Origin: an uncultured Clostridia bacterium
Lineage (GTDB): Bacteria > Bacillota_I > Bacilli_A > RF39 > UBA660
Reading direction: 5' to 3'
Assembly: GCA_948433435.1 (NCBI GenBank)
Contig: CAOJDX010000005.1
Coordinates: forward strand, 1-64,000
Length of the DNA: 64,000 nucleotides
Made by a program: the position numbers and the translations under genes
Shown here: piece after piece, positions 34,065 through 58,485 of the stretch
Numbering within the stretch: position 1 is the stretch's first letter
How the letters are laid out: each line of letters starts with the position of its first letter
Notes under the pieces: generated by a model
What the model was told of the DNA's origin: nothing
The model's input: only the letters and a program-made list of their open reading frames with translations
Database searches by the model: none

Positions 34065-35124
34065 TTATAAAGAGTTTAAAATAGGAGACTTATTTTATAT
34101 TTCAACTGGTAGAGATGTGATCATTAGCCAAACTCAAAAGGGAGATATTCCTCTTATTAGCAATCAACATAGTAATAATGGAATAACAAAATATATTAAA
34201 AGGTTAGATAATAGAGTTTTATATGATCATAAAAAGACAATAGCACTAGCAGATAGAGGAGTTTTTTTAGCTACTTCTCAAAAAAAAGATTTTCATATAG
34301 GAACTAGAGTAAAAGCTTTAACTTTTAAAAGTGGAGAACAAAGTGAAAATGTACGATTATTTTTCGTAACAGCAATTAACAAATTACAAACTCTCTTTGA
34401 AGAATATTTAACGAATGCTACAGATAAACTTCCAAGTCTATCAATTATGCTTCCAATTACTGAAAATGATGGTATTGACTATGAATATATGGAAAAATAT
34501 ATTGAGAAGCAGAAAGAACAGCCAATAGGAAAAGTAAAAAAATATTTAGAACTACATTATAACAATAACTGTCAATTAACAGAAGAAGAAGCAGAGGCTT
34601 TAATGAAATTTCAAAAAGAAGAGGTAATTTATAAAGAATATAAAATTGAAGATTTATTTACCTCTGAAAATGGTGATACAGATATACAACAAATTCATCT
34701 TAATAATAAAGGAAATTATATAGTAAGTGCTGGTGAACAAAACAATGGTATTATAGGTAAAAGCGATATTCCAGCAAAAGTTTTTGATGCAGATACGATT
34801 ACAATAGATATGTTTGGTATTCCTAATTTTAGAGATTATCAATATAAAATGGTTACACATGCTAGAGTCTTTTCTTTAAAATATAAAGAAAAAAAATTAA
34901 CCATTGAAGAAGGTATATATTTAACCAGTCAATTTCAATATTTTAAACAAATATACTTTTATTCTAATATGGCAAGTTGGGAAAAAATAAAAGATAAATT
35001 TATTAGATTACCAATTACTGTAGAGGGAGAAATTGATTATCAATTTATCAATAACTTTATAAAGGCTGAAGAAAAAATAATCATAAAAAAAATAATTGAT
35101 TATAAGGAAGAGGCAAGTGACTAG
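34057..35124 (+). CDS. Specificity subunit of the BcgI-like system
   Basis: A 355-residue S-type subunit with two target-recognition half-domains that begin alike: YKEFKIGDLFYISTGRD near residue 4 and YKEYKIEDLFTSENGD near 195. Each ends with a hydrophobic LPI strand and helix (SIMLPITENDGIDYEYMEKYI, FIRLPITVEGEIDYQFINNFI), which is typical of HsdS/BcgI-B proteins that read a bipartite DNA site. It overlaps the RM gene by 8 bases; the ATG follows AAAGGTGATCTTG. Confidence 0.82.
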   Translation: MTNYKEFKIGDLFYISTGRDVIISQTQKGDIPLISNQHSNNGITKYIKRLDNRVLYDHKKTIALADRGVFLATSQKKDFHIGTRVKALTFKSGEQSENVRLFFVTAINKLQTLFEEYLTNATDKLPSLSIMLPITENDGIDYEYMEKYIEKQKEQPIGKVKKYLELHYNNNCQLTEEEAEALMKFQKEEVIYKEYKIEDLFTSENGDTDIQQIHLNNKGNYIVSAGEQNNGIIGKSDIPAKVFDADTITIDMFGIPNFRDYQYKMVTHARVFSLKYKEKKLTIEEGIYLTSQFQYFKQIYFYSNMASWEKIKDKFIRLPITVEGEIDYQFINNFIKAEEKIIIKKIIDYKEEASD

Positions 35125-35378: not shown

Positions 35379-35407
35379 ATGACAATAGATTATAGATATA
35401 GTATAAT
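35379..35407 (+). promoter_or_regulatory. SigA-type promoter of the first giant surface gene
   Basis: ATGACA, 17-bp spacer and perfect TATAAT, about 57 bp upstream of the start codon and 25 bp beyond the IS end. Confidence 0.6.
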
Positions 35408-35464
35408 TGATTTATAAGGATATAGTGGGATATTACTAGTATGAGTTGTATGATGGTGGTAATT

Positions 35465-38400
35465 ATGAAGAATCAATTTAAAAATTATATTATTCATAGT
35501 GCATTAGGAATTATAATCTTTCTAATGGTTTTTTTGCCTTCTATTAATGTTTTTGCAGTTCAAGAGTCATTTACTTATCCATATACTGGTGAATATCAAG
35601 AGTTTATTGTTCCTGTAAGTTCTAAATATCGTATTCAATTATGGGGTGCCCAGGGAGGAGATTATGATTCTTCTTTATTAGGAGGACTTGGTGGTTATAC
35701 TGAAGGGGAAATTAATTTATTAAAAGGAACAAAACTATATATATATGTTGGTGGACAAGCTAGTAGTAGTCAAACTAATTTATATGGCGGTTGGAATGGT
35801 GGAGGAGACGTTCCAGCGGGAAAAGACAAAGATGGTCGAGCAGGAGGAGGAGCTACGGATATTAGAACTGTTCCTACTACTTCTAAAACAACTTGGAATT
35901 CTCCTGAATCGTTGGCGTCTAGAATTATGGTTGCAGCTGGTGGAGGAGGAGCAGCTTATGAGTCTACTGCCACATGGCGAAGTGATGGTGGGCCTGCGGG
36001 AGGCCTTCTTGGCTATAATCCTCTTTCTATGGGAAGTAGTGCTAGATCAAACTATGGTACAGGTGGTAGTCAAATAAAGGGTGGATATGCAGTAAATGCC
36101 TCAACTACAGCAGTTGCTCTTGGAACCTTTGGAAAAGGTGGACGTGGAATTAGCACCGATGGTGGATCTGGCGGCGGCGGCGGCTGGTTCGGTGGTGGCG
36201 GTAGTAATATTTGTTCCGGAGGTGGAGGAGGAAGTTCCTATATTTCTGGACATGATGGTTGTATTGCTGTAACTAGTAAAGGAAGTACTATTGATACTAC
36301 TGAAGTGGTTGAACATCAGTCTTATTCTTGGACTGGATATACTTTTGATCATACTAAGATTGTTGATGGAACAGGTTATGAATGGACCGATGCAAAGGGA
36401 AATTTAATCAATCAACCTACACAAAATAATTTAAACTCACAAAAAGGGAATTATGGAAATGGTTTTGCTAGAATTACTTCCTTAAGAGAATTATATACAG
36501 ATAATACGTTGAAAAGTATTACTTTTGATAAGGGAGAATTGACGCCTACCTTCTCAGCAGAACAATTAGAGTATGATCTAATTCTTGATACATATGACAC
36601 AGAGGTAGAAATTAAAGCAGAAGTCAATGAAGAACATGCTACTGTTTCAGGAGAGGGAAAGTATACTGTTAAATATAGAGAAACAAAAACAGTAAATTTG
36701 GTTGTTACTAGTGAAAGTGGTGATATTCAAATTTATACTGTTAATCTTAAAAGAAAAGGACTACCTGAAGGAGAACATAACACTAAACTTGCAGAGTTAG
36801 AGTTATATGGAGAAAGTGCAGAATTATATGAAATTGCTCCAGAATTTAAAAGTGAAGTAACTAATTATACAATTGATTTAGGATATAATACTTTAGAACT
36901 TTTCTTAACGGCTGTAGCTTATGATTATGATGCTACTGTGACAATTGAAGGGAAAGATTTAATTCTTGATAGTGAGGGGGATATTACTATTACAGTGTCT
37001 GCTCCTAATTGTACAGATACCATTTATTCTATTCATTATCGAAAGGGTTCTAAACCTGAGGCAGTTTATGAATACAATGCTATTGGAGATTATCAAACTT
37101 TCATTGCTCCGACTAGGGGAATTTATAAATTTGAACTTTGGGGAAGTCAAGGTTCAAGTTCTGGAAAACCTGGAGGTCTTGGAGCTTATACCAGTGGAAA
37201 TATTATCTTAAATTCTAATGAAGCAGTATATATTTATGTTGGTGATACAGTTGCACATGGTGCTTCCTTTAATGGAGGAGGTTTAGGAAAAGTAATGGGC
37301 TTTAGTGGAGGAGGAGCTACAGATGTTCGCCTAACGCCTGGAGCCTGGAATAATTTTGATTCCTTGAAGAGTCGTATTATGGTTGCTGCCGGAGGTGGTG
37401 GCGCTGAAGCTTGGTCTGGTCAAAGTCATGGTGGAGCTGCAGGTGGACTTTATTCTTATGATGTTCCTTATTATGCTAGTGGCTCTTGGGCATATACTTT
37501 AAATACTGGTGCTACACAGATAGCAGGTGGTAAAGGAATGAATGGTAAAAATCAATCTGGTGCTTCTGGTAGTTTTGGTATTGGTGGACGTGGAGGTCCA
37601 ACATCATATGGTGGTGGCGGCGGTGGCGGCTACTATGGTGGAGCTGGCGGCGGTGACGGTGGTCCAATGACTTCTGGTGGAAGTGGTGGAAGTTCTTATA
37701 TTTCTGGCCACCCAGGTGTTGATTCTATTGATCAAGCATCAACTGCTAGTAATATTCAACATACAGGTAGTGAAATTCATTATTCTAATAAAAAATTTAC
37801 CAATACCGTTATGATTGATGGAATGGGTTATCAATGGATTAATGCGAAATCAAAGCCAAGTCATAGTGGACAGGCAAGTAATGGTTCCCATGTTACTTTA
37901 ACTAATGGAGAATATACAGGTCAACCAGATAAAAATGGAGATATTAAAACAGGTCATGAAGGTAATGGTTTTGCTAGAATTACACCTCTTGCATCTAAAT
38001 CAGAAAATAATTATTTACAAGATATTGTTGCTAGTAGTGGGACATTATCCCCTAGTTTTTCTTCTACTGTTTATGATTACGATTTAGTTCTTGATAAGGA
38101 AGTAAGAGAAGTTGATATAGAGGCTATTTTATCTGATCAAAGTGCTACTGTCTCAGGAGGGGGACATTATAAAGTAAAATATAAGAATCCTGTGCAGGTA
38201 GAATTTATTGTTACTAGTGAAAGTGGAGATATTAGAACTTATACTGTTCAGATTAAAAGAAATGAATTAGCTGAAAATGAGCATTCTTCAAAATTAGCTG
38301 ATTTAGATTTTAAAGTTGATCAAGATGATGTAGAACCTATTTTTCAACCAATCTTTCATTCTAATGTTTTGGAATATGATATTGTTATTTCTCCTAATAT

Positions 38401-41400
38401 GATTTATTTAGATGTGGAAGCTATTCCATTTGATGATGAGGCTACAGTTAAGGTTGAAGGTGCTGGTATGATTATTGAAGATGCTGGTGAAATTGTCATT
38501 ACGATTAGTGAACCGCATGAAGCTGATACTGTTTACATAATTCGATATACGAGAGAGGAATTACCAGAAGAAGAATATCATTATAATTATACGGGAGATT
38601 ATCAAACTTTTATTGCTCCATTAAGGGGAAAATATCGTTTTGAACTTTGGGGAAGTCAAGGAGCTAGTGCTAGTGTGAAACCTGGTGGACTTGGTTCTTA
38701 TACTAAAGGAGATATTCTCTTAGAAAAAGGAGAAAAGTTATATATTTATGTAGGGAATAGTCGTCTACATGAGGTTTCCTTCAATGGAGGAGGCTTAGGA
38801 AAAGTTAATGCTTTTAGTGGAGGAGGAGCGACAGATGTTCGTCTAGTTAGTGGTCCATGGAATGATTTCAATTCAATTAAGAGTCGTATTATGGTTGCTG
38901 CTGGAGGAGGAGGAGCTGAATCATGGAATGGACAGAGCCGAGGAGGAGCTGGTGGTGGACTTTACTCATATGATGTTCCATACTTCTCTAGTGGTTCATG
39001 GAGTTATACGTTAAATACAGGTTCTACACAAACATCAGGTGGAGCTGGAATGGTTGGTCGATATCAAAGTGGATCTCCTGGTACTTTTGGTGCCGGAGGT
39101 GCTGGAGGACCTTCTTCTTATGGAGGCGGTGGTGGCGGTGGCTACTACGGTGGAGCTGGAGGAGGAGACGGTGGTCCGATGACTTCAGGAGGTGCTGGAG
39201 GAAGTTCTTATATTTCTGGACACCCAGGAGTTAACTCTATTGCTGAGGCATCTACTCCAGCCAATATTATTCATACTGGTGATATGATTCATTATTCCAC
39301 TAAATATTTTACGAATACGGTGATGATTGATGGTATGGGCTATAGTTGGATAGAAGCTACTTCTGAACCAAAGTATACTGCCAATAAAAATAATGGACTT
39401 TCTGTTACTTTAGATACTGGTGAATATACTGGACAACCTACTGTTAAAAATGATGGTATTCAAACTGGAAAAGAAGGTGTTGGCTATGCTAAAGTTACAC
39501 CATTATTCCAATCTAAAAATAACTATTTATTAAATCTAAAAACAAACTATGGAATATTTGATAAAGAATTTAATCCATTTGATACAGAATATACGTTAAC
39601 TTTGGATAAATATGAACAACATTTTACTTTAACTGGAGAGACTGCAGATAAAAATGCTGTAGTTGTTGGTTTAGGTAAATATGAAATGCATTTAGGAGAA
39701 GTTAGATATGTTAACATTCATGTTACTGCTCCTAATGGAGATATTCGTACCTATCGTATTAAAGTAGTAAGGGGAAATTTAGCTGATGGAGAACATTCTA
39801 CTAAACTAGTTTCTTTAAAAATCAATAAAAATAAATTTGCTCTTAATCCAGAATTTATCAGTATTGAAACAAATTATCGATTAGAAGTTCCTTATAGCAC
39901 AATGGTTCTTGATGTAGAGGCAATTCCTTATGATCAAACGGCAACAATTAAAATTGAAGGAAATGGATATTTGAAAAAAGATGGAGAGAATATTGTAAAA
40001 GTTACTATTACTCATCCAGAAGTTGAATCTACTGTTTATGAGGTTGTTGTTACTCGTGAAGAAGATGTAGAAGGTACTGTTTCTGAGTTTGCTTGTGTAA
40101 ATGGATATCAAAAATTTGTTGCTCCAGGAAGTACTTATTATAAGACGCAATTATGGGGAGCTGGAGGTGGCTTTGGTCGAACTGACTGGGCTTTAAGATA
40201 TCGTGGTGGAAATGGAGCTTATACAGAGGGAGAAATTTATCTTTCAAAAGGTCAAGAAGTATATGTTTATGTTGGTTGTACTGGAGAAGCTGGTGGTACC
40301 GAACTAAGTCATATTGGAGGTGCTGGTGGCTTTAATGGTGGAGCTAATGGAGGTAATGATGCTAATAGGGATAGTGCTCCTGAACCCGGAGGTGGGGGAG
40401 GAGGAGCTACTGATATTAGACTTACTCCTACTTCAAAAACGTCTGTTTGGAATGAGTTTAACTCTTTAAAAAGCCGTATTATGGTTGCTGCTGGAGGAGG
40501 TGGCGGAGCATATTATGGCATTGGAGGTGCTGGAGGTACTCTAGAAGGACTTTTGGGTTATGGAAATAAGAGTATTCCGACACAAACAAATGGTTATGCC
40601 TTTGGCTATGGAATGGCAGGTCTTGCTAACTCCATTGGTTCTGGCGGAGCTGGTGGTGGTTATTTTGGAGGATTTTCTGCTACTGATTATTCTGGAGGCG
40701 GAGGAAGTTCTTTCGTTTCTGGATGTGAAAATTGTGTTGCTATTGATGCAAATTCAACAGCTAATAACATCTTGATGAGTGCTCAAAATAAACATTATTC
40801 TAACTATGTCTTTGATAAAATTACAATGGCCAGTGGAGAAGAGACACAACCTAATCCAAATGGTGGTTATCAAACGGGAAATGCTGGAGATGGATATGCG
40901 ATTATTACTGCAGCTAAGGCTAGATCAGAAAATAATTTCTTACAAAATATTACTGTTGATAAGGGTGAACTTGTTCCTGAGTTTGACTTGTTAACGAAGG
41001 AATATACTGTAGAGGTTGATCCTGATGATACTTCTATTACTATAGATGCTACTTTAGATGATGAGACGGCGATTATGACAGGTACAGGTACTTTTGATGT
41101 GGAAGCAGGAGAAAATCATTATTCCATTATTGTTACTGCGGAAAATGGTGATATTAGAGTTTATACGGTGACTGTTATTAGAAAAGCATCTAGTACCGCT
41201 AAACCGATTGATATTAAAATTGTCGGATTAGTGCCAGCCTTATGTAGTATCAAAGATGAATATTGTACTTTAGATTCGGAATTTGATCCAGATGTTACTA
41301 CATATCATATGACGGTTCCAAACCGAATCAAACAATTAAGTTTTGAAGTGGAGAAAGCTAATAAATATCAAACGGTTACTGGAGATGAAACTCATTTACT

Positions 41401-44400
41401 AGAACAAGGAGAAAATGAAATTGTCATTGAAGTTACCTCAGAAGATGGAACTAGTACTACTCAATACACTTACTATATTACTCGTGATATGGCGGGAGAT
41501 AATCAGATTGACAACTTGGTAGTTGTTGCTCCGCCAACAGAAATTAATTTCCAACCAGAGATTACAGATTATTATTTCTCTGTTCCCGAGACAACCAGTG
41601 AGCTTGAATTACAGATTGATTTATCAGATAGTAATGCTACTTATGAAGTTGTAGGAAATGAAAATTTTGAACTAGGGCTTAATATAGTTCAAATCGTTGT
41701 TACCGCACAAAATGGTGATATTAAGACTTATACGTTAAATGTTTATCAGGAGCAGAGTGGTAATACATTCTTAAGTAATATTGAGGTTAGTCATGATGGG
41801 GTTAATTATGCCTTAACACCAGAATTTAATAAAGTAATTAGCAATTATATTGTTAATGTACCTAATGAGGTAGACCATGTTGAGATCAGTGTCACTAAAG
41901 AACATAGTTTAACTACAATAACAGGAGATGGTGATGTAGCCTTAATTACTGGAACAAATAAGGTTAATTTGGTTTCTACGGCTAGTGATGGTTCTGTTCA
42001 AATATATGAATTATATATTATTCGGGCAAAATCTTCAGATGCTACTTTAAAAAGTCTAGATGTTTTAGAGGCTAGTTTGGATCCAGAATTTAATAGTGAA
42101 GTAGCAGATTACACTTTGGATGTTCATTCTGGTGTTACTTCCTTAACAATTAAAGCGGTTGTGAATAATCCGAAGGCTACTTATAAAATTAGTGGTAATA
42201 GTGGTTTTGCTTTAGGAGAAAATAAAGTTGTTATTTTGGTAACGGCTGAAGATGGAACGAAAAAGACCTATACGTTAACTGTTAATAAAGTTGCTAGTAG
42301 TAATAATTATTTAAGTAGTCTAGTAATTGATCAATATGATATGGCTAGTATCTTTAATAAAGAAACGGAGGAGTATCATATTGTCTTTGAGGATAGAATT
42401 CCAACAATTAAAGTTAGTGCTACTCCAGAAGATAAAACGGCTAAGGTTTCTAAAACAGGTATTTATCATATTAAAACGGGAAGTAATAAAGTAGAGGTTA
42501 TTGTTACAGCTGAAGATGGTTCTAAAAGAATTTATACGATAAATATTTTTCAAACAGGAAGTAAGAATAATGACTTAATTTCTTTAGTTACTAGTTCTTC
42601 TAAATCTTTAAGTCCTCCATTTACTAAAACTAATCAGAAATATACATTGGATGTAGATAATCTTGAAGATGAGATTACGGTTATTGGAGTAGCTGAGGAT
42701 AAAAATGCAACAGTAACTGGTAATGGCACTTATCACTTAAATCCTGGAAATAATATTATTTATATTACGGTTACTTCAGAAGAGGGCGAAGAAAAGGTTT
42801 ATGATATTACAGTTAATCGGAAGAAATCTTCTAATGCCAATATTTCCTTAATTATCGCAAAGGAAAGTGTTTTGGATCCTGTTTTCGATCGAGATAAGAC
42901 AGGTACTTATTACTTAAAAGTTTTAGAAGAAGTAACTAGTCTTACTTTAAATATTGAGCTTGAAGATGAGACTGCTAAGTATGAAGTAACAGGAAATGAA
43001 AATTTCCAAATTGGTCATAATACAGTTACTATTACTGTAACGGCTGAAGATGGAACAACGAAGGCTTATGTGTTAGATGTTTTAAGACAAGCAAAAGGAA
43101 CTACTAGTGATAAATTAGAAAATTTAACAGTTAGTGAAGGAATTTTAGATCCAACTTTTGATTCGGAGACTATTTATTATGAGGTTGAAGTTGATTATAA
43201 TACCGACAAAATTACACTAGAAGCTATCGCCGAAGATAAGAATGCGACAGTAGAAGGGCTAGGGGAATATACCTTAGCTTTAGGGAAAAATGTTTTAGGT
43301 ATTTCAGTAACATCGACTGAGGGGGTTGTTCGATATTATCAAGTTGTTGTAACTAGAAACAGAAAAACGGAAGCTAGACTTTCTAGTTTACAAATTACAG
43401 ATTCTACTTTAGATCCTAACTTTGATAAAGATATCTATGAATACCATCTAAAAACTAATTATGATTCTTTAACAATTAAGGCTATTCCTTTGGATAAAGA
43501 TGCTACTTTTGAAATTATTGATAATCATGATTTTGTTGTTGGTCATAATGAGGTTATTATTAGAGTAACTGCTCAAGATGGAAAAACTACTCAGGATTAT
43601 ATCCTTCATGTGGAGAAAGAGAAATCTTTCAATAACAATTTAAAACTTTTAGAAGTTGATGGGTATGAACTTACTCCAGAGTTTTCTAAAACGACAACCG
43701 TCTACCATGTAAATGTAGGACACGATGTGAATAATATTGTGATTCAAGCAGAAGCAGAAGATAATAAGGCCATGGTAGCTGGAGATGGAACCATTGATTT
43801 AAATATGGGTGATAATTATATCGATATTATTGTTACTAGTGAAGCTGGAACGAAGAAGGTTTATACTCTAATCGTTAATAGAGAGGCGAATAATAATAAT
43901 TACTTAGCTTCTTTAATGACCTCAGATGGTACTTTAAGTCCTACTTTTGATCAATTAACTAATAATTATAATGTTGAAGTAGAGTATGAGGTAGAGAGTA
44001 TTGTGATTAGTGGAACGCCTGCTGATTCTTTGGCAACAGTTACAGGTCTTCAAAAATATCCATTAAAAGTTGGTGATAATTCTATTTCTATTAGTGTTGT
44101 TGCTGAGGATGGCTCAGTTAATGTTTATAATATTGTTGTAACTAGAAAAAATATTGTTAGTTCCAAATTAAAGAACTTGACTGTTGATTATTATCAATTA
44201 GAAGAAGAGTTCTCTTCGGAATTATTCGATTATACATTAAATATTGATTATGAGGTTCAAAGTCTTAATCTTAATATTGAAACGATAGATAAAAATGCTA
44301 CATATAAAGTTATTGGTAATCACGATTTAGTAGTGGGAATGAATACTATTCAGATTGAGGTTACTGATAGTTTAGGAAATGAGACGACAACTTATACGAT

Positions 44401-47005: not shown

Positions 47006-47045
47006 CTTTTTAGATAGAGCCATTGAGGCTCTATCTGGAAAAGTT
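47004..47045. terminator. Long hairpin after the first giant gene
   Basis: AGATAGAGCC and GGCTCTATCT form a perfect 10-bp stem with a 5-base loop, extended by AACTTTT/AAAAGTT with a small bulge. No T run follows, so it may stabilise or process mRNA, or attenuate rather than fully terminate. Confidence 0.55.
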
Positions 47046-47060
47046 ATATATACTTACTTA

Positions 47061-47101
47061 TTTACAATAATCTAAATTTTATTAATATAGATTATTGTAA
47101 A
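47061..47101. promoter_or_regulatory. Perfect 14-bp inverted repeat upstream of the second giant gene
   Basis: TTTACAATAATCTA and TAGATTATTGTAAA flank a 13-base AT-rich centre, 43 bp before the start codon. It is a candidate operator or cruciform. No identical copy was noticed elsewhere in the window. Confidence 0.55.
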
Positions 47102-47143
47102 CGAGTATGTTAAAATTAAAAATAGAGAGGTAGAGGTAGGAGT

Positions 47144-50100
47144 ATGAAAAGGGTAAAAAGAACTATTTTTTTTCTAGTAGTAATGATTGGTATTTTATTT
47201 CCAACAACAGTATTTGCTAAAAATGAAGAGTTTAGTTTAAAAGCTTATGATTATGATATTACAGCAAATGATTGGGAAGGTGCTGGAACTGGTGATGAAA
47301 TCACAAGTGGAGGAAAGGTGCAACCTGGGCAGGTTCTTCAAATTGATGTTTATTTCTCACCTGGTAGTATAGGAAACTTAGGTTTTAACTATACTATTAA
47401 TTATGACAATACTGTTTTTGAGCCTGTGTATGCTGATGGAGAATTTTATTATGATGATTATACGTATCCAGATGCTTTGCCTGATAGTCCATGGCCTTAT
47501 ACGGTTACGGGAGCAGGTAAAAATAAGAAGGTATCTACAACGTGGGTTACTACCCCATCGGATACTGGAAGTCAATTGATTTTTAATGTCAGCGATTCTC
47601 AACAAAATGCTAATAAGCCATTTGTCAATGAAGGAGTTGTTGTATCCTTCTGGATAAAGGTTAAAGATAATGTAGCAGGTGGAGCAACACTAAATTTGGA
47701 ATTTGAGAATACGGCTCAAGGGATGGCTGTTGATCGAATAGATCATGTCAAGGAAACAATTACTACAACGGATATTTCATTTCAACTAAGTACAACAATG
47801 AGTAGTGATGTTACTCTAAAAACTTTGACCGTTACAGGAAATAACAGCTTAGACTATTTATTAAATCCATTATTTACTGCAGGAACGGCCCAAAGAATTT
47901 TTAATACTATTGTTCCTTATTCTGTTTCTAGTGTAACCTTAGCGGCGGAAGCTACTGATGAAAAGGGAAAAGTACTACCTGGTGGCTTAGGAAATAAAAC
48001 TTTAACTGTAGGAGATAATTCCTTTAATATTATTGTTCAATCTGAAGATGGTCATCAGGAAATTTATGCTATTCATATTAAGAGACTTTCTAATGATGCT
48101 AGTTTAAAAACGTTATCTTTATCAGGAGTTAGCTTAGATACTAGTTTAACAACAGGGGTTTATACTTATACTGCAACAGTACCTTATTCTATTAGTAGTA
48201 CAACGGTTAGTGCCCAGGCTAATCATGAACAGGCTTTAGTGAAAATGGGACTTGGTTCATGGGGACTTACTCAGACGGGAAGTAGTTTAAATACGAGGGT
48301 TGTTACTGTAGAAGCTGAAGATTGTGATAGCCAATATGCTAGTGTTCCTGGAAATAGTTGTACAAGTCAGGATTATACGTTAAATGTTACAAGGGAAGCG
48401 GCTTCTACTAATAATGATTTAACGGATATTAAAATTGATGGGGTTAGTATTAGTGGCTTTACTTCTTCAACTCTTGAATATACTTTGGCTGATGTTGCTA
48501 ATAGTAAAACTTCAGTTTCGGTTACCGCCACTTTGGCTGATTCTAAAGCAACACTTATTGGTACGGGGAATAAATCTTTAATTGTAGGAGATAATGCGAT
48601 TACTTTGACTGTTACTGCTGAAAGTGGAGCGATAAAAAAATATATTATTCATTTAAGAAGACTTTCTAATAATGCTAATTTAGCTACTTTAACTATTACT
48701 TCTGATCCACAGGGGGTGTTATCTCCTAATTTTACACCAACTTTCTCTGACTATTATACTTATACATATGATTCTACTGTTACTGATATTCAAATAGCAG
48801 CAACAGCGGAACATAGTGGAGCGACTGTTACTAGTGGAGTTGGGCATTATTCAGGAGGAGATAGTGGTGCTAATGTTGTAGTAACGGCGGAGGATGGAAC
48901 AGTAAAAACTTATATTATTCAATTTTCTAGAAAGCAATCTAGTGATAATACCTTAAAGAGTTTAGCGATTGATTCTTATAGTTTGAATGAACCTTTTTCT
49001 CCTACTAAAACATTATATACAGCAACAGTACCAGGAACAGTAGATTCGGTTAATATTAAGGCTATTGCTAATGATGTTAATGCTACAATTGTAAGTGGTA
49101 GTGGTAAACATAGTTTACAATATGGCTCTAATACAGTACAAGTTCGAGTAAGAGCTGAAAACGGAGCTACAAAAGATTATACAATTACAATTACAAGAAA
49201 TAAAAAAGATATTTCTGCTTTGTCTGATTTAACTGTTGATGGGACAACCATTACTGGTTTTAGTGAGACAAAACAAAGTTATTCTTATGGAACGGTTCCT
49301 TTTGATAAGACTAGTGTGGAGATTGGTTATACAAAGAAAGATAGTGATGCTACTGTCGTTGGAGGCGGTACAGTTTCTTTACAAACTGGTAAGAATACTA
49401 TTAGAGTAGAAGTTATTGCTCATGATGGAGTTACCAAAACTGTTTATGAAATTGAAATTTTTAGAACATTATCAGATAATGCTTATTTAAGTAGTTTGAA
49501 TGTTACAGGTTATCCTATTTCTTTTAATAAGTTAACGAATGATTATCGTATTGAAGTAGATTATGAAGTTACGACTGTTTCTATTAGTGCTACTCCAGAA
49601 TATAGTGGAGCGACAGTTGTTCAGGGAGGACCTAATAGTTTAGCAGTGGGAGAGAATCATTATACGATTGCGGTAACAGCAGAGAATGGTTCAACTACTA
49701 ATATCTATAATTTGAATGTAGTTAGAAAAAGCTCTATTAATACTAAGCTTACTGATTTAAAAGTTGTTCATCAGGGAATCAATTATTTAGGAAGTTTCAA
49801 TCCTAATATTGATACTTATCAGATAACGGTTGATAATATGGTCGGAGAAGTGGATATTCAGGCAGTACTTGATGATCCTTTAAATCAGACTGTAGTTGGT
49901 GATGGACATAAGAATTTAGTAACTGGTTTAAATGTTTTTGAAGTTGAAGTAACAGCTGCTAGTGGGGATAAGAAAAAATATACCATTCAGATTACAAGGG
50001 CATTGAATAGTAATCATAATTTAGCTCATTTAGAGGTTTTGGACCATACTTTATCGCCTAGTTTCAGTCCAGAAAAAACAAGTTATACAGTAGAGGTAGA

Positions 50101-53100
50101 TAGTAGTGTTTCACAAGTAGTTATTCAGGGTAGTGCTGAGGACTCAGCAGCGACAGTAACTGGATTGGGGACAAAATCTTTGGTAACAGGAACGAATACT
50201 TTTAATGTTGTTGTTACAGCAGAAGATCAGCAAGTGAAAACTTATGTTATTGTTATTACAAGAAAGGCTTCTAATGACAGTAGTTTAAAATCTTTATCGA
50301 TTAAAGAATCTTTGCTTAATGAACCATTTGTAAAAACAGATACTACTTATACAGCAAGTGTTGATCATACAGTTGAGAAAATTACGGTTATGGCTCAAGC
50401 GAATGATCCAAAGGCAAAGGGAGTAACTGGAATTGGGGAAGTTTCTTTAAAAACAGGGGATAATGTTATTTCTATTGTAGTTACTGCCGAAGATAATACG
50501 ACAACGACATATACATTAACGGTTCATCGAGCTAAAAGTAGAAATGCTAATTTGGCTAATATTAGTCTTTCTAATGGTTATACTTTAGATCCAGCTTTTG
50601 ATCCTGATGTACTTACTTATCATGTTGATGTTCCTAATAATATGGCTAAAATTTTAGTATCTTGTGTAAAACAAGATGAAAAGTCAACAGTAACAGGTGC
50701 TGGAGAGATTAACTTAGCAACGGGAGATAATACTGTAATAATTACTGTCGTAGCTGAGGATACTTCAGTTAAGAAAATTTATACTGTTGTGATTCATCGG
50801 GCTCGTTCTAGTAATAATTATTTAAGTAGTCTTACTTCAACAGATGGTTTGATTACTCCAACTTTTGAGAAAGAACAAGATCAATATACTTTGACTGTTC
50901 CTTATGAGGTTACTAATGCTAATTTAACAGCAGTGGCTGAAGATAGTAATGCTCATATTTCTATTACAAGTAATACGAATTTGGCAGTTGGGGTTACGAA
51001 GGCTAGTATTACTGTAACGGCTGAAGATGGAGGGGTTAATACTTATTATGTTGATATTACAAGACAGCCATCTTCTAATAATTATTTAAGTGATTTACAA
51101 GTTTTAGATGATGCTCATCATAATTATATAGCTGTTTTTAATAAAACAACGATGACTTATACGGTTCAGGTAGATAATAGTATTACTGAGTTGGAAATTG
51201 TGGCAACAGCGGAAGATAGTTCTACTACGATAAAGGGAGTTGGTTCAAAGAAGATTGAAGTAGGAAGTAATCAATTTACGGTTGAGTCTATTAGTGCGAA
51301 TGGTACTTCTAGAAATTATATTATTACTATTAACAGGTTGAAGAATGGTAATGCTGATTTGGCTACTTTAGCAGTTGATGGACAAAAAATTGTTCCAGAC
51401 TTTTCAAAAGAAGTAATTTCTTACTCTTTAAATGTGGATGAGAGTGTGGAGGATATTCATATTACAGCAACCGCAGAGGAAGCTACTACTAAGGTTAGTG
51501 GTACAGGAAAGAAACAGCTTCATACGGGATTAAATACGTTTAATATTGAAACAAAATCAGAGGATGGAACAACAAAGACTTATGTGATTATTGTTAATAA
51601 GGCAGCTTCTAGTAATAATTATTTGGCTTCTCTTTTAATGAGTGAGGTGTTTACACCTAGCTTTGATCGTGAGACTTTAACTTATCAAGCTGTTGTTGGT
51701 AATGCAGTTACTTCTGTTAATGTTCAAGCTGTAGCAGAAGATGCTAATGCTACAGTAACTGGTAGCGGAGATCATACTTTAAGTGTAGGAAATAATTCAA
51801 TTTTAATTACAGTAACAGCGGAAAATAATACGTTTAGAGCTTATACAATTAATGTTTATAGAGAACCTTCTTCTAATAATAATTTAAGTGATTTACAAAT
51901 TGATCAGCAAACGGTGAGTGGTTTTGCACCAAGCAAATTAAGTTATAGTTTTACAGTGGCTAATCAAGTTACAGAACTAGAAATTTTAGGAATAGCAGAA
52001 GATGCAACGGCTAGTGTTTCTGGAAATAAGACGTGGTATTTGAATACTGGAGTGAATCGCACAGACATTGTAGTAACGGCTGAGGATGGAACGTCTAAAA
52101 TTTATCAGTTAGAAGTAACTCGTGAAAAATCCTCTAATAATCAGTTGGCTATTTTAAATACTTTAGAAGGAAATTTAAATCCAAGTTTTGATCCGACTAC
52201 TACTAGTTATACTTTAGATGTTCCTTATGAAGTTACAAAGTTAACGTTAACCACAGTTGCGGAAGATGCTAGTGCTACAGTGGAAATTGAGGGAAATGTT
52301 GATTTTCAAATAGGAAATAATAATATGGTTTATATTGCAGTAACAGCTGAAGACGGAAGTGTTAAAAAATATCAAATTCAGGTAACGAGATTACCACAAG
52401 CGAATAACTTTTTATCTCATCTTGCAGTAGAAACAACAGGTGGTAGAATTTATCCGCTTTCACCAGCTTTTAATCAAAATACATTGAATTATACTGTTGA
52501 TATTGATGCTAATGATAATGATTTAGTAATTAGTGGTACTAAAGAAGCTACTAGTGCTACAGTAACAGGTTTGGAAAATATTCAAGTTTCTAGTTTTCCA
52601 TATGTTCATAAAGTTATTGTTACCTCAGCTGGTGGAGTAGATCGAACGTATTCTATTACTTTTCAGAAGATCAAATCTAGTAATGCTAATTTGAAAGAGT
52701 TAAGTGTTAGTGCAGGAGTGCTTTCTCCTAGTTTTCAGGAAAATCAGACTTCTTATCAAGTTAAGGTGCCAGCTAGTGTTGATCAGATTGATATTACAGC
52801 CTTAGGCTATGAGGGAAGTTCAGTAGTTGGTGGTGGAATTCATTCATTGAATCAAGGAAATAATACCATTCAAATTTCAGTAACTGCTGAAGATGGTAGT
52901 ACAAAAAACTATACAATTAATATTGAAAGAGAAAAGGAAGTATTTGTGACTCTAGATGATATTCAAGTATCTAGTGGAGTGCTTTCTCCGGAGTTTAAAA
53001 AGGAAGTTACTGATTATATTGCTTATCTTGGTGATGGAGCAGTCGAGATGGTTTTAACTCCAATTGTTAGTGATCCACTTGCCGTTTTAAAGATTGCTCT

Positions 53101-53659
53101 TGATGATGGGGAATATCAAGATATTAGTAGTATCACTTTAGATGACTTTTCAAAAGAAAGAGTTGTTAAAATGAAAGTAGAGAATGGTGCTGATTCGAAT
53201 GTTTATACAGTTCATGTTTTAAAACAAGCAAGTGAAAAAATTACGTCTTTGGCATATGGTCATACTATAGAGGATGGTATGATTAAGACTGTTAAAGTAG
53301 ATACTACTGCTCTTGAGATGAAGGATCAGTTAGATAACGATTCTGAAAAATTAAAGATTTATCAAAGTGATGGAATAACAGAATATAATGGAAATAATAT
53401 TGCTACTGGAATGATTGTTAAATTAATTATTAATGATCAAGTAGTTGATCAAAAGATTATTGTTGTAGTAGGAGATACAGATGGTAATGGTCTTATTAAT
53501 GCGATTGATGCTTTAAAGGTTGTTAATCACATTATTGGAACAGAGAAATTAACAGGTTGCTATTTAGTGGCAGCAGAGACAACCAAGGATACTGTGATCA
53601 ATGCGATTGATGCATTGAAAATAGTTAATCATATTATTGGAAATGAAAGGTTAGGCTAG
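47144..53659 (+). CDS. Giant secreted surface protein: cohesin-like N-terminus, ~20 cadherin-like repeats, dockerin
   Basis: A 2171-residue secreted protein. The signal peptide ends near VFA (about residue 25). Residues 27-215 look like a cohesin/carbohydrate-binding beta domain (GGKVQPGQVLQIDVYFSPG, LGFNYTINYDNTVFEPV, VSFWIKVKDNVAGGATLNLEF). About 20 cadherin-like repeats follow (nt 47800-53230), then a spacer module like that of the first giant (KLKIYQSDGITEYN...TGMIVKLIINDQ) and a dockerin with loops DTDGNGLINAID and ETTKDTVINAID, each before VVNHIIG-type helices. It has no sortase motif or membrane anchor. Carrying both a cohesin-like and a dockerin-like end, it could link to itself or bridge partners. 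The ribosome site is GGTAGGAG. Confidence 0.88.
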   Translation: MKRVKRTIFFLVVMIGILFPTTVFAKNEEFSLKAYDYDITANDWEGAGTGDEITSGGKVQPGQVLQIDVYFSPGSIGNLGFNYTINYDNTVFEPVYADGEFYYDDYTYPDALPDSPWPYTVTGAGKNKKVSTTWVTTPSDTGSQLIFNVSDSQQNANKPFVNEGVVVSFWIKVKDNVAGGATLNLEFENTAQGMAVDRIDHVKETITTTDISFQLSTTMSSDVTLKTLTVTGNNSLDYLLNPLFTAGTAQRIFNTIVPYSVSSVTLAAEATDEKGKVLPGGLGNKTLTVGDNSFNIIVQSEDGHQEIYAIHIKRLSNDASLKTLSLSGVSLDTSLTTGVYTYTATVPYSISSTTVSAQANHEQALVKMGLGSWGLTQTGSSLNTRVVTVEAEDCDSQYASVPGNSCTSQDYTLNVTREAASTNNDLTDIKIDGVSISGFTSSTLEYTLADVANSKTSVSVTATLADSKATLIGTGNKSLIVGDNAITLTVTAESGAIKKYIIHLRRLSNNANLATLTITSDPQGVLSPNFTPTFSDYYTYTYDSTVTDIQIAATAEHSGATVTSGVGHYSGGDSGANVVVTAEDGTVKTYIIQFSRKQSSDNTLKSLAIDSYSLNEPFSPTKTLYTATVPGTVDSVNIKAIANDVNATIVSGSGKHSLQYGSNTVQVRVRAENGATKDYTITITRNKKDISALSDLTVDGTTITGFSETKQSYSYGTVPFDKTSVEIGYTKKDSDATVVGGGTVSLQTGKNTIRVEVIAHDGVTKTVYEIEIFRTLSDNAYLSSLNVTGYPISFNKLTNDYRIEVDYEVTTVSISATPEYSGATVVQGGPNSLAVGENHYTIAVTAENGSTTNIYNLNVVRKSSINTKLTDLKVVHQGINYLGSFNPNIDTYQITVDNMVGEVDIQAVLDDPLNQTVVGDGHKNLVTGLNVFEVEVTAASGDKKKYTIQITRALNSNHNLAHLEVLDHTLSPSFSPEKTSYTVEVDSSVSQVVIQGSAEDSAATVTGLGTKSLVTGTNTFNVVVTAEDQQVKTYVIVITRKASNDSSLKSLSIKESLLNEPFVKTDTTYTASVDHTVEKITVMAQANDPKAKGVTGIGEVSLKTGDNVISIVVTAEDNTTTTYTLTVHRAKSRNANLANISLSNGYTLDPAFDPDVLTYHVDVPNNMAKILVSCVKQDEKSTVTGAGEINLATGDNTVIITVVAEDTSVKKIYTVVIHRARSSNNYLSSLTSTDGLITPTFEKEQDQYTLTVPYEVTNANLTAVAEDSNAHISITSNTNLAVGVTKASITVTAEDGGVNTYYVDITRQPSSNNYLSDLQVLDDAHHNYIAVFNKTTMTYTVQVDNSITELEIVATAEDSSTTIKGVGSKKIEVGSNQFTVESISANGTSRNYIITINRLKNGNADLATLAVDGQKIVPDFSKEVISYSLNVDESVEDIHITATAEEATTKVSGTGKKQLHTGLNTFNIETKSEDGTTKTYVIIVNKAASSNNYLASLLMSEVFTPSFDRETLTYQAVVGNAVTSVNVQAVAEDANATVTGSGDHTLSVGNNSILITVTAENNTFRAYTINVYREPSSNNNLSDLQIDQQTVSGFAPSKLSYSFTVANQVTELEILGIAEDATASVSGNKTWYLNTGVNRTDIVVTAEDGTSKIYQLEVTREKSSNNQLAILNTLEGNLNPSFDPTTTSYTLDVPYEVTKLTLTTVAEDASATVEIEGNVDFQIGNNNMVYIAVTAEDGSVKKYQIQVTRLPQANNFLSHLAVETTGGRIYPLSPAFNQNTLNYTVDIDANDNDLVISGTKEATSATVTGLENIQVSSFPYVHKVIVTSAGGVDRTYSITFQKIKSSNANLKELSVSAGVLSPSFQENQTSYQVKVPASVDQIDITALGYEGSSVVGGGIHSLNQGNNTIQISVTAEDGSTKNYTINIEREKEVFVTLDDIQVSSGVLSPEFKKEVTDYIAYLGDGAVEMVLTPIVSDPLAVLKIALDDGEYQDISSITLDDFSKERVVKMKVENGADSNVYTVHVLKQASEKITSLAYGHTIEDGMIKTVKVDTTALEMKDQLDNDSEKLKIYQSDGITEYNGNNIATGMIVKLIINDQVVDQKIIVVVGDTDGNGLINAIDALKVVNHIIGTEKLTGCYLVAAETTKDTVINAIDALKIVNHIIGNERLG
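53464..53656 (+). other. Dockerin domain of the second giant protein
   Basis: Two duplicated segments, DTDGNGLINAIDALKVVNHI and ETTKDTVINAIDALKIVNHI, give the classic dockerin type I pair of F-hand motifs with near-identical helices. Confidence 0.85.
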
Positions 53660-53671
53660 GAGGATTAGGTT

Positions 53672-55345
53672 ATGAAAAAGAGATTTCATATATTGATAGC
53701 AATTATTTGTGTTTCGATCTTATTTGTTAATATTTTAGATGTATCGGCAGGAGTCGTTAATATTAGCATTGAAGGTAGTCCAACTGTTGTTGTAGGAAAT
53801 ACAATTGATCTTACTGTTAAGGCAAGTGATATTACAGGTTTTAATAAAGGACTTGCTACTGTTCAAGGTGATTTGATCTTTGATAATAATTATTTAGAGT
53901 ATGTGCAATATAAAAATGCTTCTTCAAATTTGAGTTCTAGTTATGGAACAACAACACAGAGATTTGTATCTTTAGGAATGGGAGGAGAGTATATCTCTTC
54001 TTCTGATAACCTAATTACTATTACTTTTAGAGCGAAAAAGATCGGAACAACTGAAGTTAGTATAAAGGATCTTGTTGTAGGAGATGTTAAGGCTATTGTT
54101 CATAGTGCGAATGCAAGTAGTAAGAGTGTCGAAATTGTCGGAGAGGATAAGACGCCTGAAAAACCAACTACTCCTAGTAAAGATGATGATAAGGTAGGAG
54201 GAAGTTCTTCTGGAGGTAATAAGCCAGATAATAAACCTAGTACTACTCCTTCTTCTAAATCTTCTAATAATGATTTAGAAAGTCTTACGATTAATCAAGC
54301 CAAAGTTAGTCCAACTTTTTCAAAGTCTACGACAGTTTATCAAGTTGTTATTCCAAATGATGTTGACCATTTGCAACTTGATTATAAAACGGCTGATTCT
54401 CATGCTACAGTTAAGGTAGTTGGGAATGAGAAATTAAGTAGTGGAAGTAAGCATGTTGTTAAGATTATTGTTACAGCAGAGGATGGTAGTACTAAAACGT
54501 ATACATTAAATGTTGAAAGAGCTAAAGATGATAGTAATAACAAGTTGGAAAGTTTAACGATTAAGGAAAGTAATTTATCACCAAAGTTTGATGCAGATAT
54601 TAATGAATATCGTATTAAATTAGATAAAAATGTTAAGAAGTTAACGATTGGTGCTATTGCTAAAGATAAAAATAGTAAGGTTGAGATTATTGATAATCGG
54701 GACTTAGATCGTCATAATAGTATCGTTTTAGTTAAAGTAACTGATAAAAATGGGTTTAGCAATTATTATAAATTGAAAGTTGAACATAATGGTAGTGGCA
54801 AAGTGATGTTATTTGGAATTAATATTCTTTATATTGCTTTTGGTTTATTATTCTTAATTGTCTTATTATTCTTTATTCTGTTATTTTTTAAAAGAAAAGA
54901 AAAAGAGGAGAAAGATGTAAGTAGTAAACCAAAACGTGTTGTTACTGATGATTTATATGATGATGTTGTTACTAAAGATGAGTTAGTAGATGCGATTACA
55001 GAAAGAGATCCTAAGAAGTTGAAAATGCTTTTAACTCAGGAAGAAGCTAATAAGTTAAAAGAGGAAGTAAAAAAACAAGAGCAGGAAAAAGATATAGAAG
55101 CAACAAAAGAAGAACTATTAAAAGCAATTGAGGAAAACGATAAAAAGAAAATTATGAAGTTAGTGGATAAAGAAAAGCTCAATCAAAAAAGACAAGCAAC
55201 AGATTATGTGAAGAGTGAAGATGATCGAATCAAGGAAGAGATTATCAAAGCAATAGAAGAAAGGGATACTTGTAAGTTAAAAATGATTGTTAAACAAGAA
55301 GAGGCAAATCGCTTAAAAGATGAATTAAGAAATGATGATCGGTAA
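53672..55345 (+). CDS. Membrane-anchored cohesin-like protein with repeated cytoplasmic tail
   Basis: A 557-residue protein in the same operon, 12 bp after the second giant gene. It has a signal peptide (cut near VSA, residue 27) and a cohesin-like domain (about 28-155: GSPTVVVGNTIDLTVKASD, GDLIFDNNYLEYVQY, LITITFRAKKIGTTEVSI). A Pro/Ser/Thr/Asp linker follows, then two cadherin-like repeats (about 193-375), one transmembrane helix (about 382-408) and a charged cytoplasmic tail. The tail holds three repeats of about 35-50 residues with the core ELxxAIxExDxKKLKML..EEANKLKEE. It is the natural membrane receptor for the dockerin ends of the two giants. The ribosome site is AGGAGG. Confidence 0.85.
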   Translation: MKKRFHILIAIICVSILFVNILDVSAGVVNISIEGSPTVVVGNTIDLTVKASDITGFNKGLATVQGDLIFDNNYLEYVQYKNASSNLSSSYGTTTQRFVSLGMGGEYISSSDNLITITFRAKKIGTTEVSIKDLVVGDVKAIVHSANASSKSVEIVGEDKTPEKPTTPSKDDDKVGGSSSGGNKPDNKPSTTPSSKSSNNDLESLTINQAKVSPTFSKSTTVYQVVIPNDVDHLQLDYKTADSHATVKVVGNEKLSSGSKHVVKIIVTAEDGSTKTYTLNVERAKDDSNNKLESLTIKESNLSPKFDADINEYRIKLDKNVKKLTIGAIAKDKNSKVEIIDNRDLDRHNSIVLVKVTDKNGFSNYYKLKVEHNGSGKVMLFGINILYIAFGLLFLIVLLFFILLFFKRKEKEEKDVSSKPKRVVTDDLYDDVVTKDELVDAITERDPKKLKMLLTQEEANKLKEEVKKQEQEKDIEATKEELLKAIEENDKKKIMKLVDKEKLNQKRQATDYVKSEDDRIKEEIIKAIEERDTCKLKMIVKQEEANRLKDELRNDDR

Positions 55346-55395: not shown

Positions 55396-56310
55396 ATGGA
55401 AATAAAAGAGAAAAAGAAAAATATAGAAAATGTAATTATTCAACCTACTTCTTTTTATGAAAATAAAAGGGTAAGTTATGGTGATATTCCTAATAAAAGT
55501 AGGAGAAGGATGAAAATTCGAGTTATTTGGTTTCTTTTATTGATTATGTTTTCTAGTATGGTGGTGATTTTATTTTTTCTGATACAGACTCCTCAAATTG
55601 ATTTTATTTTTCAAAAGCAAAAGTTAAATTATCGTAAGCAAAATAGCTCTAGTACTGGAATTTATGTAACAGATGTATCAGAAATTGTGGAGGAAGCAAT
55701 GCCTTTTATGGTAGCAATTACTAGTAAATCTTTAATTGGGGGTACTTATTCAGGCTCGGGTATTATTATTGGGAAAAATAGTGCAGAATTGATGATTTTG
55801 ACCAATTATCATGTAATTGAGCAAGCTGTGGAATTATTTGCTAAGTTTGTTAATCAAAAAGAATTTACTGTTACGGTTAAAGGAGTTTCTAAAGAGTATG
55901 ATCTGGCTGTTTTGGTTATTTCTATTGGCGAACTTGATCAAGATACATTGCATTCTATTAAGGTAGCACCGATAGGTTATAGTAGGGATTTGAAAGTAGG
56001 TAGTGGTGTTATTGCTATTGGCAATGTTTTGGGCTATGGACAATCCGTTACTACAGGTATTATTAGTGCTGTTGATCAAGAAGTTGTAATGGATGAACAT
56101 TCCTATAAAATGATTCAGACAGATGCGGCAATTAATTTTGGAAATAGTGGAGGAGCACTTTTAAATAGTAAAGGGGAAGTTATTGGAATTAATTCTTTTA
56201 AATTTTCACCTGATGAATATTCTTCAGTTCGAGTAGAAGGAATTGGATTAGCCATTCCTATCACTGATGTTAGTGGAATCATTACTAAATTAATGAATGG
56301 AGAAAATTAG
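55396..56310 (+). CDS. Membrane-anchored HtrA-like serine protease without PDZ domain
   Basis: A 304-residue protein with a cytoplasmic N-terminus of about 40 residues, one transmembrane helix (about 42-65) and an extracellular trypsin-like domain. The catalytic triad is visible as LTNYHVI (His), YDLAVL (Asp) and NFGNSGGALLN (Ser). HtrA/DegP proteins usually carry a C-terminal PDZ domain; this one ends after the protease domain. It could process or clear misfolded surface proteins of the adjacent locus. The ribosome site is weak (GGATTG). Confidence 0.85.
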   Translation: MEIKEKKKNIENVIIQPTSFYENKRVSYGDIPNKSRRRMKIRVIWFLLLIMFSSMVVILFFLIQTPQIDFIFQKQKLNYRKQNSSSTGIYVTDVSEIVEEAMPFMVAITSKSLIGGTYSGSGIIIGKNSAELMILTNYHVIEQAVELFAKFVNQKEFTVTVKGVSKEYDLAVLVISIGELDQDTLHSIKVAPIGYSRDLKVGSGVIAIGNVLGYGQSVTTGIISAVDQEVVMDEHSYKMIQTDAAINFGNSGGALLNSKGEVIGINSFKFSPDEYSSVRVEGIGLAIPITDVSGIITKLMNGEN

Positions 56311-56994: not shown

Positions 56995-58485
56995 ATGAAT
57001 TCTAAAAATTCAAAATCAAAAAAACAATTTAAATTAGATAAACATTCTAGTGCTAGTTTAGTTCTTGCATTTACGTTTGTGTGTTTTATGTTTACTATGT
57101 TTATGGCTTCTAATCAAATTGGGACAAGTTATGCTGTACCAACTAATTCAGTGCCTAAATCTTTAAAATTTAGTGGACAGATTTTTGCAGACTCTACTAC
57201 AATATGGGATTTTATGGTGCAAGACGATGGATCTGGGAATCCAGCAGAGCCTATATTATTTTTAAAGTATAATTTTAAGGCTACAGATGAGGCTACTAGT
57301 ACTCAATATGATATGTATTGTATTGAAGGGCAAAATGCTACTTTAGGTGAAGGGTATTATGACCTAGATACAGAGCTTGAATCAACATATGCTCCAGGAT
57401 TGGCCTTTATTTTAAGAAATTCTTATCCAACTGCTCCTAGTTCTTCTTTTATGACAGCATGTGATAATGCTAATGGAATGCAAGGGGTAAAACCAGATGA
57501 TTGTAAGAAATATGCTACTCAATATGCAGTGTGGTATTATTTAGATAAGATGGGTATTAAGGATCGTGCTAGTCGTACTCAGTTAGCAACTGGTGTAATG
57601 CCAAAAATTGACCTTTTAGCACGTCGTGATGGTGGTCTTTATCGTGGAGCTGCTGAAGTTGTTACAAAATTAGCTACTGCTGCTATTACCTATAATTCAC
57701 AACAACAAACTGCTGCTACTATTTCTATTAATAAAAATAGTATTCAATATCAACTTTCAGAAGATGGAACTTATTTAGAAAGTAATGATATTGCTGTTTC
57801 TAGTAATAAAACTTTAAATAATTATAGTGTTGGTTTTAATAGTAATAATTGTGATGCAAAAATTGTTGATGTTAATGGTAATGATAGTACAGTTTTCAAC
57901 TATGGTAATAGTTTTAGAATTAGAATTCCTGTTGAAAAATTAAATACTTTAGATACTGTTGATTTAGTTGTAGCTGTTACTGGTAGTTATACAACAGATA
58001 CTGTTTATGCTTATAAAAAACGTGATGATGCTTCTGCACAAAGACCAATTATAGCAGGTTATACAGATGGAGTAGCTACAGTTTCTATTACATTAGATAG
58101 TAAATTAGTTAAAATTATTAAGACTGATAAAGAAACTGGAAAGCCAGTTGCAGGGGCAGTACTTGCGATATTAGGCGCTGATGGTAATGAAATAACTCGT
58201 TTTACAACTACAGAGCAACCTTATTATCTTAATTTAGCAGCAGGTAATTATCTTTTAAAAGAAATTACTTCACCAACTGGTTATGAGTTAAACTCTGAAG
58301 AAATTCCATTTACTGTTACTGAAGATACTACTATTAATCAAGTAGAAATGAAAAATACTCCAACAACAGATGTTCCTGATACTGCTTCTAATATTCCTAC
58401 ATATTTATATATTATAGGTAGTATGATTCTAATTATTGGACTTTCAGTAATTGTTGTTAGTACAAAGAAAAATAGAAACAGTTAA
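56995..58485 (+). CDS. Thioester-domain adhesin with SpaA/Cna-B-type domain and sorting signal
   Basis: A 496-residue surface protein. After a signal sequence (hydrophobic 21-40, cut near SYA) comes a thioester domain: the cysteine in DMYCIEGQ (about 118) and the glutamine in YATQYAVWYYL (about 178) match the YCI and TQxAVW motifs that form an internal Cys-Gln bond in streptococcal adhesins. A Cna-B/SpaA-like domain (about 378-460: KIIKTDKETGKPVAGAVLAI, YLLKEITSPTGYEL) follows. The C-terminus has a sorting signal with VPDTASN in place of LPxTG, a hydrophobic helix and a KKNRN tail. The sortase gene overlaps its stop by one base. It should be wall-anchored and able to bind host or matrix amines covalently. 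Confidence 0.85.
   Translation: MNSKNSKSKKQFKLDKHSSASLVLAFTFVCFMFTMFMASNQIGTSYAVPTNSVPKSLKFSGQIFADSTTIWDFMVQDDGSGNPAEPILFLKYNFKATDEATSTQYDMYCIEGQNATLGEGYYDLDTELESTYAPGLAFILRNSYPTAPSSSFMTACDNANGMQGVKPDDCKKYATQYAVWYYLDKMGIKDRASRTQLATGVMPKIDLLARRDGGLYRGAAEVVTKLATAAITYNSQQQTAATISINKNSIQYQLSEDGTYLESNDIAVSSNKTLNNYSVGFNSNNCDAKIVDVNGNDSTVFNYGNSFRIRIPVEKLNTLDTVDLVVAVTGSYTTDTVYAYKKRDDASAQRPIIAGYTDGVATVSITLDSKLVKIIKTDKETGKPVAGAVLAILGADGNEITRFTTTEQPYYLNLAAGNYLLKEITSPTGYELNSEEIPFTVTEDTTINQVEMKNTPTTDVPDTASNIPTYLYIIGSMILIIGLSVIVVSTKKNRNS

Follow-up and report, generated by a model that had tools for sequence, protein, structure and literature searches.

Three adjoining forward-strand genes, designated giant 1, giant 2 and the anchor, were located in a 64,000-nucleotide window (positions 1 to 64,000 of contig CAOJDX010000005.1, from an uncultured Clostridia bacterium of the RF39 lineage), and they likely encode one ordered, calcium-clamped, membrane-anchored and enzyme-free surface fibre, judged from domain content, gene order and comparison of relatives. 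The fibre would be fastened by cohesin-dockerin pairs, which are usually regarded as cellulosome parts, and its predicted order was membrane helix, cohesin Coh3, dockerin Doc2, 20 domains, cohesin Coh2, dockerin Doc1, and 26 domains with four glycine-rich domains (GRDs) at the free end. About even chances were given to a fuller version, in which the dockerins are differently coded, the genes stand in assembly order, the membrane cohesin has a conserved cytoplasmic tail, the GRDs form the tips, and the whole elaborates a family-wide two-gene module. The locus is probably a new variant of the known cohesin-dockerin surface assembly, and the use of this assembly in an enzyme-free fibre appears new.

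Organization of the three-gene locus

All three open reading frames (ORFs) were open and encoded proteins with an N-terminal hydrophobic signal (signal peptide). Each protein had a defined module order, as follows:

35465..47005, +, giant 1, 3846 aa, with signal peptide; an in-frame upstream ATG also at 35441
35621..36484, +, GRD1, glycine-rich domain of ALK/LTK type (PF12810, 154.9 bits)
36512..37048, +, cadherin-like (PF12733) repeats 1 and 2 of giant 1 (iterated profile)
37112..37987, +, GRD2 of giant 1 (PF12810, 136.5 bits)
38018..38557, +, cadherin-like repeats 3 and 4 of giant 1 (iterated profile)
38624..39340, +, GRD3 of giant 1 (PF12810, 137.9 bits)
39530..40060, +, cadherin-like repeats 5 and 6 of giant 1 (iterated profile)
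40136..40909, +, GRD4 of giant 1 (PF12810, 149.7 bits)
40943..46297, +, cadherin-like repeats 7 to 26 of giant 1 (iterated profile)
46340..46525, +, Big_2-like domain of giant 1, before the dockerin end (28.1 bits, cut-off 22.8)
46580..46759, +, spacer (X-like) module preceding Doc1 and sharing homology with the Doc2 spacer (alignments)
46760..47002, +, Doc1, C-terminal dockerin of giant 1 (family profile, 35.1 bits)
47144..53659, +, giant 2, 2171 aa, with signal peptide (open ORF)
47216..47803, +, Coh2, N-terminal cohesin of giant 2 (PF00963, 17.7 bits; AlphaFold2 fold search)
47819..53227, +, 20 cadherin-like repeats of giant 2 (iterated profile)
53234..53428, +, spacer (X-like) module before Doc2 (alignment, model)
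53432..53656, +, Doc2, C-terminal dockerin of giant 2 (PF00404, 32.9 bits; family profile, 98.4 bits; three helices in the model)
53672..55345, +, anchor protein, 557 aa (open ORF)
53741..54151, +, Coh3, cohesin of the anchor (PF00963, 37.7 bits; family profile, 132.2 bits)
54278..54790, +, two cadherin-like repeats of the anchor (iterated profile)
54797..54901, +, transmembrane helix region of the anchor (hydropathy 3.29)
54902..55342, +, cytoplasmic tail of the anchor, ~130 residues, about three DELxxAIxxxDxxKLKxLL-type charged repeats, conserved in relatives

The two dockerins differed in their relation to Pfam (cut-offs: 22.9 bits for dockerin PF00404 and 24.1 bits for cohesin PF00963). 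Doc2 exceeded the cut-off though its second calcium loop was degenerate, while Doc1, with the canonical first loop DVNGDGEVNVKD and a degenerate second loop (loop scan), scored 15.5 bits; against a family dockerin profile not containing it, Doc1 reached the score listed above, compared with 8.9 bits for the best of 200 shuffles. By its sequence Doc1 is a divergent dockerin, a member through the family profile only.

Coh3 exceeded its Pfam cut-off by sequence, and fold searches gave cohesins for both Coh3 and Coh2. The Coh3 family profile matched mostly cohesins in PDB, the top 14 PDB fold matches of its AlphaFold2 model were all cohesins, and the best of them was a non-cellulosomal Clostridium perfringens cohesin (2jh2, E 6.5e-11, TM-score 0.79). 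For the AlphaFold2 model of Coh2 (pLDDT 67.6, pTM 0.73), cohesins made up all 50 of the top 50 PDB fold matches listed. When the Coh2 profile was searched against PDB sequences, it returned 'Pizza' repeat proteins; these were dismissed, since their scores added up matches below threshold and no single stretch was significant.

Below, G000 denotes the host, G001, G003 and G006 relatives in the same genus, and G045 a relative in another genus. In a tree of 22 spacer-plus-dockerin sequences, the Doc1 sequences of four genomes formed one clade (98/96), the Doc2 sequences a second (79/77) and the short-module dockerins a third (93/97), and none of 200 shuffles gave an equally clean separation. Over spacer plus dockerin, Doc1 and Doc2 of the window were 25% identical to each other, while their identities to the G003 orthologs were 74% and 79%, respectively; each position therefore retains its own type of dockerin, which an ordered chain requires. 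The Coh2 and Coh3 families were only remotely similar (hhalign: probability 67%, E 5e-5, 44 columns).

The cytoplasmic tail of the anchor was 84% identical in G003 (searched part) and 44% identical over 45 aa in G006, and it was also kept in the G045 anchor, judged by eye. Among 60 genomes searched, no tail match was found outside the anchors of G000, G003 and G006, and the idea that this tail is common to other membrane proteins was dismissed because matches occurred in anchors only. Such conservation suggests that the anchor communicates with something intracellular.

By iterated profile, giant 1, giant 2 and the anchor contained 26, 20 and 2 PF12733 repeats, respectively (25, 18 and 2 stretches by Pfam alone); genome-wide, PF12733 matched 43 times, always inside this locus. 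No cadherin-family Pfam match besides PF12733 was found at E<=1 in the three proteins; as far as their sequences tell, these repeats are not true cadherin, and the name denotes a fold analogy only. Pfam scans of the three proteins detected neither a catalytic domain nor any carbohydrate-binding module (CBM) family, and the matches to FAIM1, PEN-2, SQAPI and Pneumo_att_G were dismissed as chance or weak.

The first ~1800 residues of giant 1 consisted of the four GRDs interleaved with three repeat pairs. PF12810 is otherwise known from human ALK/LTK receptors; of 98 genomes searched, 29 contained it, and every one of these belonged to the same family as the host. PDB sequence searches with the GRDs (as single queries and as an alignment) matched no solved structure, ALK/LTK included, and the resemblance to the human receptors thus lies in the Pfam model alone.

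The initial annotation, made from the window sequence, agreed with these results on the three ORFs and the repeat counts, on a dockerin at the end of each giant (Doc2 by Pfam, Doc1 by family profile), and on giants without a wall or membrane anchor of their own: no transmembrane segment besides the signal was present in either giant, and no LPxTG motif was found near the C-terminus of giant 1, giant 2 or the anchor. Its description of the giants as cadherin-like repeats, spacer and dockerin was accurate but incomplete, giant 1 having the GRDs and the Big_2-like domain in addition; the cohesin, the two repeats and the single helix that it assigned to the third protein were all recovered, but the cytoplasmic tail had been overlooked. 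The cohesin-like N-terminus that it read in giant 2 scored low against PF00963, but the fold search gave cohesins for both giant 2 and the anchor, the two places where the proposal depended on a cohesin fold.

Two further features flanked or separated the giants:

35379..35407, +, promoter-like site ATGACA-17-TATAAT upstream of giant 1 (11/12 consensus matches; consensus only, the region not being enriched over shuffles)
47007..47041, +, hairpin of 15 pairs directly after the giant 1 stop, between the giants (1 found, 0.0 expected)

The hairpin is possibly an attenuator or a processing site, and perhaps it sets the ratio of giant 1 to giant 2.

Conservation in related genomes

With the giant loci counted, 18 genomes had 20 loci at which a dockerin gene was followed on the same strand by a cohesin gene, with a gap of -4 to 25 bp. 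The usual module of the relatives was composed of two genes: (i) one for a dockerin-ended secreted protein of ~570-735 aa, in many cases carrying SH3_3 plus a cadherin-like domain, and (ii) directly 3' of it, one for a protein of ~430-480 aa with cohesin, cadherin-like domain and transmembrane helix. Anchor-type genes with this helix were conserved across the family, and by these comparisons the locus in the window elaborates the family-wide module of dockerin protein plus cohesin membrane protein. Pfam dockerins were present in 50 of 59 family genomes and 5 of 39 genomes outside the family, and Pfam cohesins in 33 of 59 and 3 of 39, respectively.

The complete relay, namely a dockerin-ended protein, a protein with cohesin and dockerin, and a protein with cohesin and transmembrane helix, was present in the host and again in G003. 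The G003 giant 2 and anchor were 71% and 75% identical to those of the host, while its giant 1 was shorter (2917 aa, 2 GRDs and 23 repeats); its Coh2 ortholog scored 23.6 bits against PF00963, or 24.7 bits with neighbours in frame. G001 had a variant relay, in which giant 1 and giant 2 were followed by a third gene beginning with a cohesin; the apparent continuation of this gene on another contig (32-residue overlap at the contig ends) carried Big_2-type sequence and a dockerin, with no transmembrane helix. The relay also recurred in G045, where a Doc1-like tail at a contig edge stood immediately before giant 2. Coh2 thus came directly after Doc1 in the gene order of G000, G003, G001 and G045.

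Additional cohesin layouts were observed in the host genus. A G006 cluster (L110, G006:C83) had several cohesin genes ending in a sortase-like gene, and consecutive genes for cohesin only, cohesin with transmembrane helix, and cohesin with Big_2 (~1150 aa), then the sortase-like gene, were seen in L110 and in L129/L131 (G001:C26/C37). These consecutive cohesin genes suggest that anchoring there is branched or laid out in an alternative way. Giants with GRDs, 4200-5500 aa in length, were found in G026:C24, G045:C1/C6/C9 and G005:C87, and the scan of the G005 giant gave no PF12733 repeats.

Proposed assembly and alternative readings

In the proposed fibre, the anchor would be held in the membrane by its one helix with Coh3 exposed outside. 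The C-terminal Doc2 of giant 2 would plug into Coh3, and the rod of 20 immunoglobulin-like (Ig-like) domains would run outward to present Coh2 at its end; the C-terminal Doc1 of giant 1 would then plug into Coh2, lengthening the rod by 26 domains. The four GRDs at the free end of giant 1 would form the distal tip, serving as a binding or display part, and they likely make this end the functional one, perhaps in adhesion. With the textbook length of ~4 nm for an Ig-like domain, the rod could be ~150-200 nm long. Both the cohesin-dockerin bond and the cohesin itself have very high mechanical stability (PMC8355295), a property that suits a tensile fibre.

The proposal of the initial annotation that the anchor holds a dockerin-ended giant gained support, since gene order and the conserved adjacency of dockerin and cohesin genes both point to it. 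The order Doc1-Coh2 and Doc2-Coh3 was favoured because the two dockerins fell into distinct position-specific clades, each adjoining a different cohesin. It is unlikely that both giants instead compete for Coh3 as the sole anchor cohesin, giving two alternative fibres and leaving Coh2 to bind something else. The related spacer modules and dockerins at both giant ends would fit such competition, and the third dockerin protein of the genome (see below) could use Coh2; the low identity of Doc1 and Doc2, their separate conserved clades, and the recurrence of Coh2 directly after Doc1 in four genomes argue against it. Self-chaining of giant 2, raised in the initial annotation, was disfavoured on the same clade evidence. 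Giant 2 does bear both a cohesin and a dockerin, but an open-ended homopolymer formed through its own Doc2 and Coh2 and capped by giant 1 is improbable: the dockerin just upstream of a cohesin-transmembrane gene in relatives was of Doc2 or short-module type, so that the natural partner of Doc2 would be an anchor-type cohesin, and the Coh2 and Coh3 families were similar only remotely (see above).

There is also a slim chance that the giants are released as matrix or S-layer-like proteins, their ends serving for tethering or folding at the time of secretion and the anchor being a transient docking site. The hairpin between giant 1 and giant 2 and an HtrA-type protease gene just downstream of the anchor would be in keeping with release, but not the family-wide conservation of an anchor-type gene with transmembrane helix or the conserved cytoplasmic tail of anchors of the window type (G000, G003 and G006; in G045 by eye). 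A cellulosome-like display, in which Coh2 or Coh3 recruits dockerin-bearing enzymes, is very improbable, even if the same fasteners serve in cellulosomes (PMC5817068). In the 90% complete host genome the inventory was closed, which also favours the ordered fibre: besides Doc1, Doc2, Coh2 and Coh3, there was one more dockerin and one more cohesin (three of each in all), both in a single Peptidase_M26_N-like giant of 3492 aa, so the only dockerin outside the fibre sits in a protein with its own cohesin; no dockerin-borne glycosidase was found in this genome, and no glycosidase domain stood beside any of the three dockerins. The cohesins of the locus stood one to a protein, in place of the several of a scaffoldin. 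Cohesin arrays, dockerin-borne glycosidases and a CBM, the marks of a cellulosome, were all lacking in the locus, and the absence of such glycosidases supports the initial annotation in reading the proteins as a fibre and not a cellulosome.

Several observations weigh against the ordered, anchored fibre. Coh2 alone, at 17.7 bits, falls below the PF00963 cut-off; the second loops of Doc1 and Doc2 are both degenerate, and therefore one calcium site may be lost in each; and the hairpin at 47007-47041 could mean unequal expression or separate transcription of the giants. In addition, G007 and G005 showed the glycine-rich giant only, on fragmented contigs, so that the complete relay was confirmed in just some of the relatives. 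A single-chain model of Doc2, a short linker and Coh3 folded both modules well but gave no confident interface (pTM 0.50), so the interface was neither supported nor excluded; this chain, a read-through of the stop codons between two in-frame adjoining genes, was a modelling device only.

Across this uncultured family, whose genomes are mostly 1-1.5 Mb, cohesin and dockerin appear as a general means to attach and chain surface proteins. If the predicted binding is true, the locus would provide (i) a new set of naturally occurring fasteners that are orthogonal and bear force and (ii) a new kind of modular surface fibre, with a bacterial setting for the ALK/LTK glycine-rich domain.

Related systems and neighbouring genes

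The locus was compared with the ScaA-ScaB-anchor tiers of Ruminococcus flavefaciens (PMC5934362) and the type II CipA-SdbA anchoring of Clostridium thermocellum (PMC5817068). All share secreted proteins chained by distinct C-terminal dockerin/cohesin specificities (predicted for the window), an anchoring cohesin protein at the cell, and a spacer module before the dockerin. Unlike those systems, the window locus had one cohesin per protein instead of arrays and carried no enzymes or CBMs; its tiers were rods of cadherin-like repeats in a compact three-gene relay, and its anchor was a transmembrane protein, not a sortase or SLH anchor. The closest solved folds to Coh3 were cohesins outside cellulosomes, namely those of C. 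perfringens (2jh2, 2w1n and 2vo8) and Archaeoglobus fulgidus (2xdh); the C. perfringens cohesins reside in secreted glycosidases, whereas those of the window reside in fibre subunits and an anchor.

Giant repeat adhesins of Gram-positive bacteria resemble the giants in having a signal peptide, a long Ig-like rod and distal functional domains, but each of those adhesins is one chain attached through sortase or wall modules, whereas a two-protein stalk with exchangeable non-covalent fasteners is predicted here. The GRDs scored 136-155 bits against the ALK/LTK-type PF12810 model and had no receptor kinase context. The LPxTG motif of a sortase-assembled pilus was absent from the three C-termini, and the nearby thioester domain-SpaA gene and sortase belonged to a separate cluster (see below). 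A literature search, with most subscription papers outside its reach and novelty therefore provisional, found no description of such an enzyme-free cohesin-dockerin fibre or of RF39 together with dockerin.

The genes around the locus were as follows: (i) at 32040-35124, directly upstream of giant 1, a Type I restriction-modification-like pair of N6_Mtase, which also matched VRR_NUC weakly, and Methylase_S; (ii) at 55396-56310, just downstream of the anchor, an HtrA-like membrane serine protease, which might process the fibre; and (iii) at 56995-59156, a protein with thioester domain plus SpaA and a signal of VPDTA type, and immediately after it a sortase, as a separate sortase-linked surface protein cluster. 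Elsewhere in the host genome, the 3492-aa giant (G000:C3:57968-68446; L124:169-10647) carried its cohesin at the N-terminus and its dockerin internally, close to residue 350, and matched Peptidase_M26_N in three stretches. Giants of 2400-3100 aa in which a dockerin comes soon after a cohesin recurred in the family genomes G004, G007, G017, G019, G024 and G036.

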